The notes below the pieces were generated by a model that saw only the letters and a program-made list of their open reading frames with translations, had not been told where the DNA came from and made no database searches. A stretch of 8,240 bases of DNA, taken from Rickettsiales bacterium. GTDB taxonomy: Bacteria > Pseudomonadota > Alphaproteobacteria > Rickettsiales > 21-14-0-20-44-7. The DNA is taken from NCBI GenBank assembly GCA_023301015.1, contig JALZVI010000194.1:1-8240 (forward strand), read 5' to 3'. The position numbers were made by a program, and so were the translations under genes. Below, piece by piece: positions 1 through 8,240 of the stretch (the first letter of the stretch is position 1; the number at the start of each line of letters is the position of its first letter).

Positions 1-29
1 CTCATTTAATCCAAGAAGAAAATGGCTAA
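1..29 (+). CDS. C-terminal tail of an active-type tyrosine recombinase (partial)
   Basis: The first 29 bases read in frame (codons from base 3, preceded by the last two bases of a Thr codon) as THLIQEENG followed by a TAA stop at 27-29. This matches the end of the complete recombinase further right, which finishes THLIDKKDE-stop just after its catalytic tyrosine. The gene starts outside the window. Its stop overlaps the ATG at 22 of the next gene by 8 bp, exactly as in the second recombinase pair, where the ATG is at 6714 and the stop ends at 6721. Only about nine residues are seen. The assignment therefore rests on this similarity plus the identical overlap, which I consider persuasive but short. 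Confidence 0.6.
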
Positions 30-2064: not shown

Positions 2065-2169
2065 AAGCGTTCCAAAAATCCGTTAGAGTCGTATAGATAT
2101 GGCTTCCAAGGACAGGAAAAAGATGATGAAGTTAAAGGTGAGGGAAATAGCATCAACTACAAGTACAGA
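2065..2169 (+). pseudogene. RHS core remnant upstream of the toxin cassette
   Basis: The frame of the downstream toxin gene stays open upstream to 2065, just after a TAA at 2062-2064, with another in-frame stop at 2050-2052. It encodes [14 protein letters not shown] followed by [13 protein letters not shown], the characteristic RHS repeat-associated core of Bacteroidota. No ATG, GTG or TTG codon is found in frame before 2170. The thousands of bases of YD-repeat-coding sequence that normally precede this core are absent. This is therefore a 5'-truncated RHS end, probably left by recombination of a C-terminal tip. It could be expressed only by fusion to a full-length RHS gene or by internal initiation at 2170. 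Confidence 0.8.
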
Positions 2170-3096
2170 ATGCACGACCCAAGAATTGGAAGGTTCTTTG
2201 CGCCTGACCCATTAGAAGCTAATTACCCATTTTATTCGCCTTATCAATTTAGTGGAAACCGATTAATAGATATGGTAGAGCTTGAAGGACTTGAACCAGC
2301 AAAGCCAGGTAGTGAAGAAGGAGAAATGCAAGAAGCAAGACTCAAACGTAACGGTAAAAATTTCGGTAGATGGGGAAAGCGAAAAAAGAAAGAATGGTTT
2401 TGGCATAAAGGCACAGAATATACAGAAGCTGGTTGGTATGGGAAAGATGATTATGAATTAACTCAATTAGATTATGAGAACGGTCAAGTATTACCAGCAG
2501 CAGCATTTTATGAGTTCGGATTAAGGCAGATTAAACCAGATGGTAGTCCTGCTGGTTCTGGAGATTTTTATTCATCAGTAGACCAACAAGGTTACCTTAC
2601 AGGCGATACAGGAGCAAATCCTACATATCTTGAATTACCTTGGTATGTAGGCAATCCAGCTAAAGGACCAGCAGCTGTAAAGTCATTAGCAGCCAGTAGT
2701 AAATTAGGTAATTTATTTTTTAGGACAAGAGGTTTAGCTTATGCGTTTCTAAAAAGAATAAAACTAAATCTTCCAAAATCTCAAGCACCAGTTGCACAAT
2801 GGACAGTAACTGATGATATTTTGAAAAAAGGGTTTGATAAAAGCACAGGATTTATTTATACTAATAATACAACTCACGTAGGTAAATTTCAATTATTTAA
2901 GACAGATAATGGATATAGAGTTATAGTTAAGCACGTTAAAGATGGAGATGTGCATTACCACGCTGGTAAAGCTGCTGTAAATGGAAAGGAAATTTTATTT
3001 AAAAGTAGTGATGAAGCAGCGGAATGGTTCCAAGTTAATAGATATACAAAAATTGATGATGTAAACCATTTTTACACGAAACTACCAAAGGAATAA
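2170..3096 (+). CDS. Orphan RHS C-terminal tip with putative toxin domain
   Basis: From the first available ATG the protein has 308 residues. Residues 1-43 are the end of the RHS core ([13 protein letters not shown], then [14 protein letters not shown]), the boundary after which RHS proteins of this phylum switch to a variable toxin. Residues about 44-170 are a linker-like region rich in Gly, Pro and charged residues. Residues about 205-308 look like a compact C-terminal domain with several histidines (H236, H255, H262, H264, H300), including [14 protein letters not shown]; this could be a nuclease-type active site, but I do not recognise the family. No signal peptide or membrane segment is visible. 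Full RHS proteins deliver such tips to neighbouring cells; here the delivery body is missing, so this is likely a silent reservoir or displaced cassette. The stop codon shares a base with the next start, the usual toxin-immunity arrangement. Confidence 0.8.
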
Positions 3097-3611
3097 TGGA
3101 GTTAAAAGAAAAGATTAATAATATTAAAAGAAAGACATTTATAGAGTCAAAAAAAGAATTTTATAAGGCTATTTTTGGTGGTGGCTTTTTAGATATGGTA
3201 TTGATGGAAGATTACATAAATCCAGAGATAAATACAGTAATTTCTTTTATTGAAAATCCTAAAATAAGCAAGAAAAATTATAGAGTAATGCCAACAATGA
3301 CAATAAGTTCAAAAGAAAATGTTGTTGTAAATAGAAGTATTGCAGATTTTGTAAATGATTTTTTTGAGAATGATGTTGTTAGTTATTTGTTTAGTCATAT
3401 ATATAATACTGACCACGAAATTAGTGGTTACATAAGTTTAAAAAAGAAATCATTTGTTGAGAATTTTAATAAACTTTTATCTACCTACGGGTTTATAACA
3501 AATGAGGATAATACAAAGTTTATTTACTATTGTGCCAGCAAGAGTTCAGAGAAAATTTATTTTTACAAAGGTTTAATTAAAGAAGATAAATTTATCAAAA
3601 TATTGAATTGA
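3096..3611 (+). CDS. Putative cognate immunity protein
   Basis: A 171-residue protein of no family I recognise. Its ATG (3096-3098) overlaps the TAA of the toxin gene by one base (TAATG), so translation is probably coupled. Position directly after an RHS toxin tip, same strand, small size and absence of a signal peptide or membrane segment all fit a cytoplasmic immunity protein that binds the toxin domain. The sequence is rich in Lys, Ile, Phe and Asn, and its DNA is more A+T-rich than the toxin gene, as is common for horizontally exchanged immunity genes. The function is inferred only from position. A terminator-like hairpin follows 22 bases after the stop. Confidence 0.65.
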   Translation: MELKEKINNIKRKTFIESKKEFYKAIFGGGFLDMVLMEDYINPEINTVISFIENPKISKKNYRVMPTMTISSKENVVVNRSIADFVNDFFENDVVSYLFSHIYNTDHEISGYISLKKKSFVENFNKLLSTYGFITNEDNTKFIYYCASKSSEKIYFYKGLIKEDKFIKILN

Positions 3612-3663: not shown

Positions 3664-3993
3664 TTACAAAGCCTTTAATTTAGACGCTTTAACAAGATTG
3701 TCAATCAAATAGAAAAGATGGTTTTTATCTTCTTCTGGCAATTGTTCAATATCATCAATACGTTTTAAAACTTCTTTATCATAAGTTGAGAGCTGTCCTT
3801 CGCCAATCAAGAAATCCACAGATACATTAAACTCATTAGCAATTTTTAAAAGAATATCTACAGATGGTGTATTCTCGTTACGCTCGTAATTACCAATAAT
3901 GGTACGAGAAACACTTACACGCTTCGCTAACTCGCTTTGTGAGATATTAAGCTTCTTCCTTAAACTAATTATTTTGCTTCCAATGTCCAACAT
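3664..3993 (-). CDS. XRE-family helix-turn-helix transcriptional regulator
   Basis: A 109-residue protein with an N-terminal HTH_3/XRE domain (residues about 5-65). The recognition region is SQSELAKRVSVSRTIIGNYER, followed by the typical PSVDILLKIANEFNVSVDFLIG end of the domain. The C-terminal 40 residues are helical and charged, probably for dimerisation. There is no peptidase or effector domain, so the control signal is not evident. It is transcribed divergently from the ATPase-recombinase operon and separated from it by about 140 bases that contain repeated TTGACAA half-sites. The likely role is a phage-type repressor of the mobile module and possibly of itself. The start is the ATG at 3993. 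Confidence in the family is high; the target is inferred from location. Confidence 0.88.
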   Translation of the reverse strand: MLDIGSKIISLRKKLNISQSELAKRVSVSRTIIGNYERNENTPSVDILLKIANEFNVSVDFLIGEGQLSTYDKEVLKRIDDIEQLPEEDKNHLFYLIDNLVKASKLKAL

Positions 3994-4068: not shown

Positions 4069-4102
4069 TTGGTAGTTTAGTGAAAAGAAAAGTATACATT
4101 TG
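4069..4102 (+). promoter_or_regulatory. Rightward promoter for the ATPase-recombinase operon
   Basis: TACATTTG at 4095-4102 is a full match to the Bacteroidota TAnnTTTG element. TTG at 4069-4071 lies 23 bases upstream, at the long end of the usual spacing. Transcription would begin near 4109, leaving a short leader before ATG 4137. This supports that ATG over the upstream GTG at 4080, which would lie within the promoter. Confidence 0.5.
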
Positions 4103-4119
4103 TCAAGAATCATTGACAA
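4100..4119. promoter_or_regulatory. Candidate repressor operator (inverted repeat)
   Basis: TTGTCAA (4100-4106), six bases, TTGACAA (4113-4119) form a perfect dyad. It overlaps the last bases of the TACATTTG promoter element and the expected transcription start. A third identical half-site, TTGACAA, occurs at 4049-4055 in the same divergent region. Location and symmetry fit the adjacent XRE dimer, which is not proven to bind here. Confidence 0.5.
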
Positions 4120-4136
4120 TAAAATATTTTTCTATA

Positions 4137-5726
4137 ATGGCAAATACATTTAAAGTTGAGAATGCAGAACAACTAATTTATGAGAACGATTTACTACAAC
4201 TCACAGTTTTAGGTGGCATAAAAATAGAAGGATTAGACAGGATGCGAATAACTGTAAAGCTACAATTACAGGAAAGTAGCAGACCACCAATACGGCATAA
4301 TCTTGATTTATACAACGATACACAATTAGAGAAATTTATAAGAAAGTGTGCAGAAAAGTTAGAAATAGGAACGTCAGTAATATCAGCCAGTTTAAGCGAA
4401 CTCACAGAAGAACTTGAAAAATACCGTGTCGAAAGAATAAAAGAAGCTGAACAGAATTTAAAGCTAAAAATCAAGCAACTAACATTAGCAGAAAAAGAAG
4501 AAGCTGAAACATTTTTAAAGTCCAAAGACTTATTAAATAAAACAAATGAGTTAATCGGAAAATCTGGAGTAATAGGCGAAGAAGTAAACAGATTATTAAT
4601 GTATATCATATTTACAAGCAGACAGCGAGAACAACCGTTACACGTTATCAGCTTGGGAAGCTCTGGAACAGGAAAGACCCATTTACAAGAAAAAGTAGGC
4701 GAATTAGTTCCGGAAGAAGAACGAGTAAGTATTACTACTCTATCAGAAAACGCCTTTTATTATTTTGGAAAACAAGAATTAAAGCACAAAGTAATACTAA
4801 TAGAAGATTTAGACGGAGCAGAAAATGCACTCTATCCATTACGAGAATTACAAACTAAAAAACGTATTGTAAAAACCATTGCTAGTAAAAATAACAAAGG
4901 AGAAACTCAAACCAAATATTTAGTAGTTGAAGGTCCTGTATGTGTTGCAGGTTGTACCACCAAAGAGCATATTTACGAGGATAATGCCAATCGTAGTTTT
5001 TTAATTTACCTCGATGAAAGTGCAGAACAAGACAATAAAATAATGCAATACCAACGTCAAATATCAAGTGGCGAAATCAACTTTTACGAGCAAAAAGAAA
5101 TACAAGAGTTTTTACAGAACACGCAACGCATATTACAACCAATCAGAGTCATCAATCCTTATGCAAATAAACTCAATCTTCCACAATCAGTATTTAAACC
5201 ACGAAGAACCAATAACCACTATTTACAATTTATTGAAGCGATTACATTTTACTATCAATACCAACGAGAAAAGAAATACAACAAAGAAACAGGAGAAGAA
5301 TATATTGAAGTAACCATTGAAGACATAGAAAATGCAAATACGCTTTTAAAAGAGATTTTATTGCGTAAAAGCGATGAACTCACAGGAAGTTGCAGAAACT
5401 ATTTAGAGTTGCTCAAATCGTATTTAAAGCTTAAAAAGAAGAAACAGTTTACAGCATTAGAAATCCGCAAGCAATTACGATTGCCCAAGACATCACAATG
5501 GCGTTATCACAAACAATTAGAAGATAGTTACCTCATTAAGAAAGTAGAGAAAAAAGGCAAGCAAACAAATCAATATCAAGTAACCAACGAAAAGGAATAC
5601 AAAGAACTGGAAACGCATATACAGACTGTGTTGGATGATTGTTTACAAGATATAAAGTGTTCCATTGTTCCAAAACGTTCCAAAGCAAAAATGGAACGGT
5701 CAAAAGTAACAAAAACAGCAAGTTAG
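4137..5726 (+). CDS. AAA-type ATPase with winged-helix-like C-terminus, mobile-element associated
   Basis: About 529 residues from the ATG at 4137; a GTG at 4080 would add 19 residues but lies in the promoter. Residues about 1-90 are a compact N-terminal domain and about 95-145 a charged, probably coiled helix. The ATPase domain has a Walker A motif GSSGTGKT (174-181), a Walker B-like VILIEDLDG (from 219), and a late NRS motif (285-287) that could be a sensor or arginine finger. Residues about 436-490 (FTALEIRKQLRLPKTSQWRYHKQLEDSYLIKKVEKKG) resemble a winged helix. The ATPase portion recalls the helicase/ATPase half of CHC2-type primase proteins on mobile elements, but no zinc finger or TOPRIM domain is seen. 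It heads an operon with two recombinase genes, so remodelling or targeting DNA for recombination, or initiating element replication, are both possible. Subfamily uncertain. Confidence 0.75.
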   Translation: MANTFKVENAEQLIYENDLLQLTVLGGIKIEGLDRMRITVKLQLQESSRPPIRHNLDLYNDTQLEKFIRKCAEKLEIGTSVISASLSELTEELEKYRVERIKEAEQNLKLKIKQLTLAEKEEAETFLKSKDLLNKTNELIGKSGVIGEEVNRLLMYIIFTSRQREQPLHVISLGSSGTGKTHLQEKVGELVPEEERVSITTLSENAFYYFGKQELKHKVILIEDLDGAENALYPLRELQTKKRIVKTIASKNNKGETQTKYLVVEGPVCVAGCTTKEHIYEDNANRSFLIYLDESAEQDNKIMQYQRQISSGEINFYEQKEIQEFLQNTQRILQPIRVINPYANKLNLPQSVFKPRRTNNHYLQFIEAITFYYQYQREKKYNKETGEEYIEVTIEDIENANTLLKEILLRKSDELTGSCRNYLELLKSYLKLKKKKQFTALEIRKQLRLPKTSQWRYHKQLEDSYLIKKVEKKGKQTNQYQVTNEKEYKELETHIQTVLDDCLQDIKCSIVPKRSKAKMERSKVTKTAS

Positions 5727-5785: not shown

Positions 5786-6721
5786 ATGAAAAAATTAATC
5801 CTAAAAAATAATAGTTACGAATATCTACAAAGCGGTTTTAAAGAATGGTTGGACATCTTGGGTTACAATCCAATGAGTGTTTATAATCTGCCAAATATCA
5901 TACGTGAGTTTTTACACTTTTTAGAAAGTAAGAATATTAATCACATCAATAATTTAGAGCAACAACATTATAAAGATTACTATAATTACATATATAATCG
6001 AGGAAATCAAAGACGTGGCGGAGGATTAAGCAATAATTACATCAACAAGCATTTACAAGCAATCGAGAAGTTTTTACAATACTTGCATCACAAAGGAATG
6101 CGCAATGTTCCACATCTTGGAATTACACTATTAAAACTCAATGCCAAAGAAATAACAGTACTCTCACAAGACGAAATACAACTGCTCTACAAAGCCACAT
6201 ATAAAGAAGTAGAAACCCAAAGAATGGAAGCTTTACAATCAAGAGATAGAGTATTATTAACGGTGTTTTATGGTTGTGGATTACGAAGAAAAGAAGGTGC
6301 TTTTTTAGAGCTGAACGATATTAATTTAGACAGACGTGTATTGCACGTAAGAAAAGGGAAAAACTATAAAGAACGCTTTGTTCCATTTAGCAAACCCAAT
6401 ACCAAAATCTTTGAAGAATACATTTACGACTTTAGGCCATTACTGGCAAAGTCTAAAAAAGAAAGTAGTTTATTTATTGGCTACTCGGGAAAACCAATGT
6501 TTGGTGGTGGCTTATACACAAGATTGAAGCTATTACAATTACAAATAGAAGATATAGAATTACAAAATAAAACTATAGGACTACACACATTACGTCACAG
6601 TATTGCAACACATCTTTTAGAAGCTGGAATGCCATTAGATAAAATCAGTCGTTTTTTAGGTCATTCTTCACTCGAAAGCACACAGATTTATACACACTTA
6701 ATCGACAAGAAAGATGAATAG
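5786..6721 (+). CDS. Tyrosine recombinase/integrase with full active site
   Basis: A 311-residue site-specific recombinase of the tyrosine (XerC/D-like) family. I chose ATG 5786 over a TTG six bases upstream. An N-terminal SAM-like DNA-binding domain (about 10-108) is followed by the catalytic domain (about 122-308). All catalytic positions are present: Arg I in GCGLRRKEG (R167), the hairpin lysine in RKGKNYKERFVPF (K192), HTLR (H267, R270), GHSS (H293) and the nucleophile in STQIYTHL (Y302). It would cut and rejoin DNA through a 3'-phosphotyrosine intermediate. It lies 59 bases after the ATPase gene, and its end overlaps the degenerate partner by 8 bp, indicating one operon and coupled translation. 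It is the only complete, catalytically intact recombinase in the window and so the likely engine of the element. The target site is not identified. Confidence 0.93.
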   Translation: MKKLILKNNSYEYLQSGFKEWLDILGYNPMSVYNLPNIIREFLHFLESKNINHINNLEQQHYKDYYNYIYNRGNQRRGGGLSNNYINKHLQAIEKFLQYLHHKGMRNVPHLGITLLKLNAKEITVLSQDEIQLLYKATYKEVETQRMEALQSRDRVLLTVFYGCGLRRKEGAFLELNDINLDRRVLHVRKGKNYKERFVPFSKPNTKIFEEYIYDFRPLLAKSKKESSLFIGYSGKPMFGGGLYTRLKLLQLQIEDIELQNKTIGLHTLRHSIATHLLEAGMPLDKISRFLGHSSLESTQIYTHLIDKKDE

Positions 6722-7631
6722 TTTTAAGCAATATTTAGAAAGTAGAGAATTAAGTAAAAGTACCATCACACATTATAATACTTATGTTTTAGATTTTATA
6801 AGTTGGTTAGATAAAGACAATACAGAAATAGAAAATGTAACTACAAAAGAACTCACAGCATATTTATTAAAACTACAAAAACAAGGATTACAGAATAAGA
6901 CAAAAGCAATTAGAATCAATTGTTTGAAGCATTATTTTAACTGGCAAACACAATGCAATAAAAGAAATGATAATCCTGCAAAGCATATTAAGATACGAGG
7001 AACAAAAACCAAGAAACTACACGATGTTTTTATGCTTCCAGAATTAGAAAAATTATATAATGATTATACAATACCAAGTGAAGATGATAAACGTAATAAT
7101 AGAAATTGGTGGCAAGAACATTTACTAACAAGAAAGCGAAATAAAGTAGCATTAGGATTATTGATTTATCAAGGCTTAACAACTGCGGAAATAGATAAAT
7201 TAACCGAAAATGATTTACAATTACGAGAAGGGAAAGTATTTATAAAAGGCAGTAAAAAGAGTAATGAAAGAACATTAGAGCTGAAATCACATCAGATAAT
7301 GGAGGTAATGGAATATCAACTAAAAACACGTTTAGAACTTCTTAAAATTGCTCAAAAAGAAACCAATCAATTATTTATTAGTAAAGGAAAAAATATACAA
7401 TCCAATAATAATTGGAAACGATTAAGTCAAGTAATCAAAGAACAAAACCCAAAGTTTACAAACTTCAAACAAGTTAGAGCATCAGTAATTACACATTGGT
7501 TAGGAATGTATAATCTTCGTCAAGTTCAATATATGGCAGGACATAAATATGTAAGTTCAACCGAAAGTTATTTAGTAAATAGATTAGAAGATTTACAAAG
7601 CGATATAGATAAATATCATCCAATGTTATAA
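6714..7631 (+). CDS. Degenerate tyrosine recombinase partner lacking Arg I (copy 2)
   Basis: A 305-residue recombinase-fold protein, paralogous to the gene at 22-1008. An N-terminal core-binding domain (about 1-95) is followed by a catalytic-type domain. Arg I is replaced (GLTTAEI, T156) and the histidine of HxxR is replaced by lysine (K252-Q-V-R255). R255, the GH histidine (H277) and the tyrosine (Y286) remain, and a lysine-containing hairpin (KGSKKSNERTL) is kept. Such a protein is unlikely to catalyse strand exchange efficiently alone. Its 8-bp overlap with the intact recombinase suggests a subunit that binds DNA or completes a mixed complex. The open frame is intact and the YMAGH.YVSSTE.YL region is conserved in both copies, arguing against simple decay. 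A shortened N-terminus compared with copy 1 is notable. Confidence 0.88.
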   Translation: MNSFKQYLESRELSKSTITHYNTYVLDFISWLDKDNTEIENVTTKELTAYLLKLQKQGLQNKTKAIRINCLKHYFNWQTQCNKRNDNPAKHIKIRGTKTKKLHDVFMLPELEKLYNDYTIPSEDDKRNNRNWWQEHLLTRKRNKVALGLLIYQGLTTAEIDKLTENDLQLREGKVFIKGSKKSNERTLELKSHQIMEVMEYQLKTRLELLKIAQKETNQLFISKGKNIQSNNNWKRLSQVIKEQNPKFTNFKQVRASVITHWLGMYNLRQVQYMAGHKYVSSTESYLVNRLEDLQSDIDKYHPML

Positions 7632-7669: not shown

Positions 7670-8197
7670 ATGAGCGAAGAAAGTATCATACCCAACGAAG
7701 TAATTACCAATAAAATATATCTGATTAGAGGTCAAAAAGTAATGTTAGATAGGGATTTAGCAGAACTTTATGATGTAAAGAATATTCGACTACGAGAACA
7801 AGTAAAAAGAAATACAGATAAATTTCCAGAGCATTTTATGTTTAGATTAACGGAAATAGAGACGGAATTTATGGTATCGCAAAATGCGATACCTTCCAAA
7901 AAACATCTTGGAGGTTCTTTGCCTTACGTATTTACAGAACACGGAATATTGCAGTTAGCCAATGTTTTAACAGGCGATAGAGCAACACAAATGAGTATTA
8001 GAATTATTGAAGTTTTTGTACAAATGCGAGAAGCTTTAACAGATAACTTAAATTTAAAACTTGATATTGAAGAAATTAAAAAGAAGCTATCAAATCATAG
8101 TAAAAATATAGAATTGGTTTTTAATTATTTAGATGAACTTATTGAAAAAAAGGACAACGAAAAGCCACGTAATAAAATAGGTTATAAAAACAGTTAG
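7670..8197 (+). CDS. ORF6N-domain protein
   Basis: A 175-residue protein. Residues about 8-95 match the ORF6N domain pattern: a strand-rich start ending in KVMLDRDLAELYDV, then REQVKRNTDKFPEHFMFRLTEIE, then LPYVFTEHGILQLANVL. The C-terminus (about 125-163) is a charged, probably coiled-coil helix. ORF6N is a DNA-binding-type domain related to the KilA-N/Bro group, frequent in phages and in mobile islands of Bacteroidota. Known members are antirepressor- or regulator-like, but the precise role of most is unknown. It starts 38 bases after the recombinase partner on the same strand, so it may share the transcript. It is the last gene before the second 37-bp repeat. A 21-base palindrome lies within its coding sequence. 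Confidence 0.85.
   Translation: MSEESIIPNEVITNKIYLIRGQKVMLDRDLAELYDVKNIRLREQVKRNTDKFPEHFMFRLTEIETEFMVSQNAIPSKKHLGGSLPYVFTEHGILQLANVLTGDRATQMSIRIIEVFVQMREALTDNLNLKLDIEEIKKKLSNHSKNIELVFNYLDELIEKKDNEKPRNKIGYKNS
7873..7893. repeat. Perfect 9-bp-arm palindrome inside the ORF6N gene
   Basis: GGTATCGCA (7873-7881), AAA, TGCGATACC (7885-7893) is a perfect dyad in coding sequence, specifying part of MVSQNAIPSK. It is more G+C-rich than the surrounding DNA. It may be a protein-binding or autoregulatory site, or a hairpin in the mRNA. It could also be a chance product of codon choice. Confidence 0.5.
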
Positions 8198-8203
8198 AAC
8201 TTA

Positions 8204-8240
8204 AAAAGCTTCGCAAGTTCCTTCGTCACTTGCTCGCAAA
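8204..8240 (+). repeat. 37-bp direct repeat, right copy (runs to window end)
   Basis: Identical to 1007-1043 over 37 bases and in the same orientation, six bases after the ORF6N stop. The base before the match differs (A here, T on the left), so the left edge is a real boundary. The right edge is cut by the window. The two copies bracket about 7.2 kb containing the toxin cassette and the whole regulator-ATPase-recombinase module. Confidence 0.85.

Follow-up and report, generated by a model that had tools for sequence, protein, structure and literature searches.

The 8,240 nt stretch of DNA analysed here, referred to as the window, raises the question of why a tyrosine recombinase lacking the first of the catalytic arginines (Arg I) should be encoded directly behind an intact one. 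The intact enzyme, TyrA (A), is a 311 aa tyrosine recombinase encoded at positions 5786-6721 of the forward strand, with the complete catalytic signature R-K-H-R-H-Y. The gene for its 305 aa partner, TyrB (B), lies at 6714-7631 on the same strand and overlaps that of A by 8 bp; in the encoded protein, Arg I is replaced by Thr and the His of the HxxR motif by Lys. Another copy of B, in which Arg I is Asn, belongs to an upstream element and is found at 22-1008, also on the forward strand. A sequence-only reading of this locus had reported the overlap, the common fold of the two proteins and the altered residues in both copies of B, all of which were borne out by the results below. It had also suggested that Arg I was lost independently in the two copies and that the partner has a selected role, perhaps in a heteromeric complex, and these proposals fared less uniformly.

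Results

A pair of recombinases with one altered active site

Both ORFs of the pair match the Pfam family PF00589 (E-values of 1.4e-33 for TyrA and 2.9e-15 for TyrB), as does the copy at 22-1008 (3.1e-14). TyrA and TyrB can be aligned across the whole catalytic domain, and family profiles identify both core-binding and catalytic domains in TyrB. In a three-way alignment, the motifs GLR, HTLR, GH and Y of TyrA correspond to GLT, KQVR, GH and Y in TyrB, such that the second arginine (Arg II), the GH His and the nucleophilic Tyr are kept in the partner; the copy at 22-1008 reads GLN, HQIR, GH and Y, and has therefore retained the HxxR His as well. AlphaFold2 models are complete for both ORFs, with mean pLDDT values of 90.4 (TyrA) and 90.3 (TyrB), and the best PDB matches to the TyrB model are Xer proteins, Tn1549 Int, IntI4 and lambda Int, with TM-scores of 0.40-0.65 among the matches listed. 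The best-scoring NCBIfam models for A and B are likewise those of Xer proteins, though both scores fall below the equivalog cut-offs (157.5 bits for TyrA, against 335.15 for XerC; 107 bits for TyrB, against 329.6 for XerD).

The copy of B at 22-1008 is 45% identical to the TyrB at 6714-7631, and 96% identical to the partner in the related locus L027. It is the second gene of its own pair, having an 8 bp overlap with the putative tail of an upstream TyrA (HLIQEENG and a stop codon, 3-29, forward strand), which is cut by the start of the window and was recognised by analogy with the pair in L027, where the genes likewise overlap by 8 bp. From the sequence, the window hence looks to contain two A-B pairs, one of them cut by its edge, a point that the sequence-only reading had overlooked.

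Arg I is absent from B across its relatives

A search with TyrB found 2944 proteins at E <= 1e-3, and the catalytic residues were read in the best 120 of these. Arg I is never Arg in this sample (T in 106, C in 8, I in 4, S in 1 and V in 1) and the HxxR His position is held by K in 112, R in 4, Q in 3 and L in 1; Tyr, Arg II and the GH His are each found in 120/120. A first set of loci was then defined using a DNA-pattern scan of one genome per species, which gave 68 loci, nearly all labelled Bacteroidota; the labels Williamsia, Bacillota and Spirochaeta belong to metagenome bins, possibly misbinned. Alignment of these loci and the window yielded 65 A and 66 B sequences, each of at least 260 aa. 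The R-K-H-R-H-Y signature, taken as the test of catalytic completeness, is present in 65/65 of A and incomplete in B, of which 65/66 lack Arg I, the exception being that of L031. The residues occupying this position in the 66 B are T in 31, N in 11, G in 9, S in 5, K in 2, D in 2, and Q, C, V, A and H once each, in addition to the R in L031. The HxxR His is found in just 8/66, with Arg II and the GH His each in 65/66 and Tyr in 64/66; the nucleophilic Tyr is replaced by Phe in two Dokdonia partners (L056:9995-10897 and L065:3683-4582).

Because the Thr-Thr of the B motif lies within one of the two scan patterns, this first set is skewed in favour of Thr at that position. As a check, a second set of 40 loci (8/30, 17/19 new, 15/15), some of which repeat elements of the first, was assembled through profile and protein searches of whole genomes that did not use the DNA pattern. 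An adjacent A is present in 40/40 of these, with the full signature in 39/40 and the remaining A interrupted. Arg I is missing from 37/40 of the B sequences, and the three having Arg carry Asp for the HxxR His; one B in this set ends before the HxxR His. Across both sets, Arg I and the HxxR His occur together in 0/105 B. The absence of Arg I noted in the window is a trait of the family and not a chance feature of one sequence.

No conserved B-specific Arg that might act as a substitute was found in an alignment of B with A and XerD. Arg269, the sole conserved Arg specific to B relative to A, was considered for this role and rejected: in a profile alignment it coincides with the Arg of the XerD motif LRVVQ, and hence does not represent a special replacement for Arg I. 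Residues conserved in B, and not in A, include Gln153, Gln194, Trp262 and Tyr273.

A single ancestral loss, followed by long-term maintenance

The history of the pair was reconstructed with FastTree using 104 A and 105 B, including sequences repeated between the two sets, with the root placed within A as the sole outgroup. All 105 B form a single clade (support 1.0), and parsimony assigns a non-Arg residue to its base, with a single later change, a gain of Arg. Hence the loss of Arg I is ancestral and did not happen independently in the two copies of the window, contrary to the original proposal; the position then drifted after the loss. The four B bearing Arg, one in L031 and the other three in the genus to which genome G012 belongs, make up one nested clade (support 0.989). 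Partners commonly standing alone with a restored Arg I would have counted against the sequence-only reading; these four are the B that have the residue, and all of them still adjoin an A and carry Lys or Asp for the HxxR His.

Values of dN/dS are 0.05-0.21 for B in eight comparisons, and 0.03-0.12 for A in the pairs compared; judged by these ratios, B is maintained under purifying selection over the long term. The suggestion of a selected role for the partner accordingly stands in that the pair travels together and the defect at Arg I persists under purifying selection, even though the argument from repeated loss does not. In the first set, a full A lies directly upstream of 60/66 B, overlapping it in 58 of these 60 cases, by 4 to 137 nt if the longest possible start is used, which makes these lengths upper bounds. 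Two near-identical copies in L011 have a 5 nt gap instead of an overlap, and in L048 the order is reversed, with B ahead of A. In L009, L042 and the window copy at 22-1008 just a fragment of A is present at the edge of the sequence, that of L025 is broken, and L032 begins within B. In the loci examined, the two genes are found together wherever this can be checked, as the initial reading would have led one to expect.

The two proteins also diverge together. In 48 non-redundant triples that include the neighbouring primase-like gene, the correlation between A and B distances is r = 0.91, and the partial correlations are 0.82 for A and B given the primase, 0.31 for A and the primase given B, and 0.13 for B and the primase given A; linkage and a similar fold also raise the A-B value. 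This co-divergence fits the heteromer originally suggested, in that it favours a shared physical complex, although the correlation is no proof of one.

Organisation of the element

The commonest order of genes in these loci is a divergent RstR-like repressor, a replication-type protein of primase/helicase-like character, A and B. In the window, the repressor is a Cro/C1-type protein of the RstR family encoded on the reverse strand at 3664-3993 (NCBIfam NF041951, 90.5 bits with a cut-off of 80). The replication-type protein (4080-5726, forward strand) has a P-loop-like motif, GSSGTGKT, recognised by eye, and no match of its own to Pfam or NCBIfam families; its homologue in L001 matches from 4137 onward, and longer homologues, in L043 and L034, have CHC2 zinc finger and Toprim primase domains. 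Downstream of B, ahead of the element's right end, lies a cargo gene on the forward strand at 7670-8197, encoding an ORF6N-domain protein (PF10543, 2.6e-30), which also follows B in L001, L002, L004, L005, L019, L023 and L059.

The right end of the upstream element is represented by non-coding sequence on the forward strand at 1009-2085. It contains inverted repeats at 1152-1276, 1284-1384 and 1811-1898, and is partly conserved in relatives; positions 1000-2059 are 87% identical to L027 10865-11936. This non-coding region of around 1 kb may harbour an origin, arm sites or a structured RNA. An Rfam search of the window gave a single weak hit (E 0.43) that we attribute to chance, and no tRNA was found in the window. 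A 37 bp repeat at 1007-1043 is identical to 8204-8240 on the forward strand, at an offset of 7197, where the right end of the second element starts. The repeat was considered as an attachment repeat and rejected, as it marks where the non-coding right end begins; in L027 it directly follows B.

At 2086-2100 (forward strand) is an attR-like junction, at which the right end is joined to RHS codons for YRYG (tcgTATAGATATGG), the crossover being placed within these limits without single-base precision. A box, catacgttcttttaaat, is located at 2013-2029, about 57 bp ahead of this junction, and similar boxes precede the junctions of L001, L019, L027 and L030. Beyond it, a displaced RHS core and C-terminal toxin tip, truncated at the 5' end, extends over 2065-3096 on the forward strand, with its first ATG at 2170 and few open codons upstream of the core. 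It matches the RHS-core profile built here with an E-value of 2.9e-38, and scores 16.5 bits with TIGR03696, under the cut-off of 32.5; 9/10 of the relatives' tips exceed this cut-off. No match to toxin families was found for the window tip (2170-3096), and one of ten relatives' tips has a toxin-family match above the cut-off (Ntox8). A putative immunity gene at 3096-3611 on the forward strand, recognised by its position, overlaps the stop codon of the tip by one base; its product has no match above cut-off in Pfam or NCBIfam. In 72/87 RHS ORFs, the stop codon is followed, at a distance of 30 bp or less, by the start of a gene of at least 80 aa, and the gene just after the tip is, by this arrangement, likely to be an immunity gene.

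Distant versions of the module were found at L001:1192-4741 and L007:602-4735, with identities of 23-30% for the primase-like protein, 30-32% for A and 29-31% for B; RHS tips follow there too. Searches of a plasmid collection returned 23 records, all at less than 60% identity, of which 20 are listed at 21-31% and many are annotated as XerC or XerD, and a phage collection gave nine records, also all below 60%. No encoded relative, and no match to a 34-base repeat, was found in viral contigs.

The element is flanked by RHS genes in one orientation

An RHS core and toxin tip lie on the left of the element, and another core and tip on its right, beyond the non-coding end. This RHS setting, which the sequence-only reading had not noticed, is the more important part of the findings. 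Taking the 66 B as elements, and requiring there to be room in the locus, an upstream RHS core is present within 6 kb in 28/32, 13 of these being in long open RHS genes, and a downstream core within 4 kb in 29/35, of which 28 of 29 are 5'-truncated (fewer than 100 open codons before the core); tandem copies, and in a few cases two matches per gene, mean that these counts overstate the number of independent events. No upstream core was found within 6 kb in L046, L052, L056 and L058, nor a downstream core within 4 kb in L012, L015, L052, L056, L058 and L065. The 4 kb limit meant that tips farther away were initially missed: L012, L052, L056 and L065 have a core 5.3 to 8.2 kb after B, and there is none downstream anywhere in the loci L015 and L058. 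All 93 of 93 RHS-core profile matches are on the element's strand. In the 20 genomes checked there are 2-22 matches to TIGR03696 per genome, hence chance should account for such proximity in an estimated few per cent of cases at most. The element's own tip and the old tip of the host are told apart by position.

Two classes of site occur at the RHS junctions, DYYPxG and YRYG, and that of the window is of the latter class. The clearest view of the former comes from Salegentibacter (L030), where units begin at 4454, 11682 and 18910, with a period of 7228. The first starts within an RHS frame that stays open for at least 1828 aa, which is a lower bound owing to the locus edge cutting the frame, at GATTACTATCCCGGCGG (DYYPGG); the later starts read ...agcgtaaGATTAGTTTTCAGGCGG, in which the stop-bearing right end is joined to the next tip. 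The constant right end, ...agcgtaaGATTAGTTTTCA, is joined to the tips that follow. A similar picture is found in L027, L025, L014/L016/L022, L048 and L011: L014, L016 and L022 have a common constant right end (...gcatagactactataca) with different tips attached, and in L048 and L011 successive tips diverge immediately past YLY and YKY codons. The reading frame of the interrupted RHS gene continues into the tip of the element without a stop, with the old tips found behind, 5'-truncated and co-oriented. Where both ends of a DYYPxG insertion are visible (L014, L025, L027 and L030), the bases of the left junction are those of the host through the Pro codon, and those of the right junction are the element's; one fixed exchange point at DYYPxG would suit this pattern, the cases being too few to show it. 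Among 16 genomes of the same genus as L030 there is no close element-free copy of its RHS shell, and one further genome has a 48% match.

One tandem array is that of Flavivirga aquatica (G001:C54:1190000-1241003), in which five tip-repressor-primase-A-B units follow one another; B is broken in the first, and the array ends in remnants of recombinase and primase-like genes and a further RHS fragment. There are 11 matches to B at E <= 1e-20 in this genome (G001), and at E <= 1e-40 B is present in 12/299 genomes of its family, and in 10/79 of the genus of G012. As tandem repeats are prone to misassembly, it should be borne in mind that these arrays, like the model as a whole, are read from assembled sequence, among which neither a circular form nor an empty site was seen.

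The loci L052, L056, L058 and L065 constitute one branch of the module, in which anti-phage-like genes are located after B. This defence-like cargo includes GmrSD with a type IIG restriction-modification system, ThsB, PDC-S06, LRR-Roc-COR and a match to the PADLOC 'Effector' endonuclease. Three of these loci still have an RHS tip, 6.7-8.2 kb after B, with a junction of the usual kind.

Discussion

These observations suggest that TyrA and TyrB would be the two subunits of an integrase belonging to a Bacteroidota integrative element, the attachment site of which lies in RHS toxin genes. A circular form is expected, at whose junction the right end would adjoin the RHS core, toxin tip and immunity gene that the element itself carries. 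This circle would recombine with a resident RHS gene at its DYYPxG or YRYG codons, such that the RHS shell continues in frame into the imported tip and the old one is displaced to a position behind the element, where stop codons separate it from the shell; repeated insertions would then give rise to tandem arrays of stored tips. Expression of the new tip, its toxin activity and the immunity activity of its neighbour are predicted on the same grounds, as is the direction of exchange. Catalysis would be supplied by TyrA, with TyrB, an old paralogue in which Arg I, the HxxR His or both are missing, most likely binding the second half-site and shaping the synapse of a putative heteromer. TyrA would in that case make one strand exchange, and the junction would be completed by replication or by slow action of TyrB, an order of events that we infer from the residue pattern. 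That the element targets RHS genes we regard as highly probable; that B is a non-catalytic or barely catalytic partner is favoured only slightly, and the joint model, in which A catalyses, B is most likely an active-site-defective partner and insertion swaps the RHS tip, seems to us probable.

The retention of Tyr, Arg II and the GH His in nearly all B appears odd for a purely structural subunit, and leaves room for slow or altered catalysis. It is possible, if doubtful, that TyrB is in fact an active recombinase with an unorthodox pocket, A and B each cleaving one pair of strands in the manner of XerC and XerD. The conservation of Tyr in 64/66, and of Arg II and the GH His each in 65/66, together with Tyr in 120/120 of the best 120 of 2944 homologues, would be expected of such an enzyme, and the CTnDOT integrase is described in PMC8138268 as working with Arg I replaced and another Arg helping. 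However, the Arg I, Lys and HxxR His positions drift in B and are invariant in A, the alignment offers no Arg conserved specifically in B, and Tyr has become Phe in two partners. A decayed active site in a retained fold might instead indicate a regulator or directionality factor for DNA binding or excision, acting outside the synaptic tetramer. This seems unlikely given that B co-diverges more strongly with A than with the primase-like gene, that the genes overlap, and that TyrB has both core-binding and catalytic domains. There is next to nothing to commend B as a decaying pseudogene duplicate: it is split or contains stops in L040 and L049, and is likewise broken in four matches of the second search and in the first Flavivirga unit, so disruptions of the kind that the initial reading had envisaged do exist in some copies, but B is intact in most loci and in many genera, and its dN/dS of 0.05-0.21, along with its conservation, leads us to reject this explanation for the family.

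It might also be argued that a satellite-like element simply has the pair as its ordinary integrase module, and that the link to RHS genes is a by-product of RHS-rich islands, with tips being swapped by homologous recombination. Long homology is indeed common to RHS genes, and L052, L056, L058 and L065 have defence-like or other genes beside B, with no RHS core within 4 kb downstream. We think this improbable, as three of these four loci have a tip farther out (6.7-8.2 kb) behind a junction of the usual kind, all 93 of 93 core matches share the element's orientation, and the junctions fall at fixed codons next to a constant right end. Returning to the reading in which insertion swaps the tip, its fullest form would be a hitherto undescribed family of mobile elements in Bacteroidota that lives by polymorphic toxin switching: an obligate heteromer of one working and one active-site-defective subunit, a single strand exchange in conserved RHS codons, replacement of the tip, an ordered, integron-like archive of old tips and, sometimes, anti-phage cargo. 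Our belief in this complete picture is evenly balanced.

The exchange of tips in RHS and other polymorphic toxins, and the storage of old ones, are usually ascribed to homologous recombination. A dedicated element, comprising a recombinase, an attachment site in a toxin gene and a cargo of toxin and immunity genes, would offer a testable, site-specific mechanism for the same process. The pair itself would be a natural tyrosine recombinase complex with one active site disabled, which asks whether a single strand exchange suffices for integration.

The closest parallel to the pair is that of XerC and XerD, acting at dif in E. coli, which are also two related simple tyrosine recombinases, with a heterotetramer expected in both cases; A and B match the solved structures of XerD and XerA. 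Both XerC and XerD keep their catalytic residues, whereas here one subunit lacks the full set, and the genes overlap and are carried by a mobile element. The outcome resembles that of the shufflon, in which the recombinase Rci inverts resident segments to produce C-terminal variants of the surface protein PilV; the element described here instead imports a new end and stacks the old ones. Such a stack is reminiscent of the integron, where a single integrase serves many cassettes that are arranged in order behind one expressed first position, although in the present arrays a recombinase pair and a replication-type protein come with every intact unit.

RIT elements, which are presumed to be mobile, likewise have neighbouring tyrosine recombinase genes that overlap; they are described in PMC3414803 as having three genes, each with a possible catalytic motif. 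Compared with that description, these loci fall outside the RIT type, having two genes, one of them defective, together with a repressor, a primase-like gene and an RHS tip. IntDOT, the integrase of CTnDOT, is a tyrosine recombinase of Bacteroidota without the canonical Arg I; as portrayed in PMC8138268, it has a substitute Arg farther downstream and an arm-binding domain, and serves as sole integrase, whereas the alignment of TyrB reveals no substitute Arg specific to B, and TyrB is one of two partners. The rAID arrays of Bacteroidales link a tyrosine recombinase to immunity genes against interbacterial toxins and are presented in PMC12247911 as stores of orphan immunity genes behind one recombinase. 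They differ from the units described here, which alternate tip, repressor, primase-like gene, A and B, and in which the toxin tip, its neighbouring gene and insertion into RHS are central. Searches of one open library, judged by titles and the starts of abstracts, revealed no paper linking RHS tips with a recombinase of the TyrA/TyrB kind. Whilst its parts are of known kinds, what looks to be new is their combination: a pair of recombinases, one of the two disabled, whose target is a toxin gene and which provides that gene with a new end.
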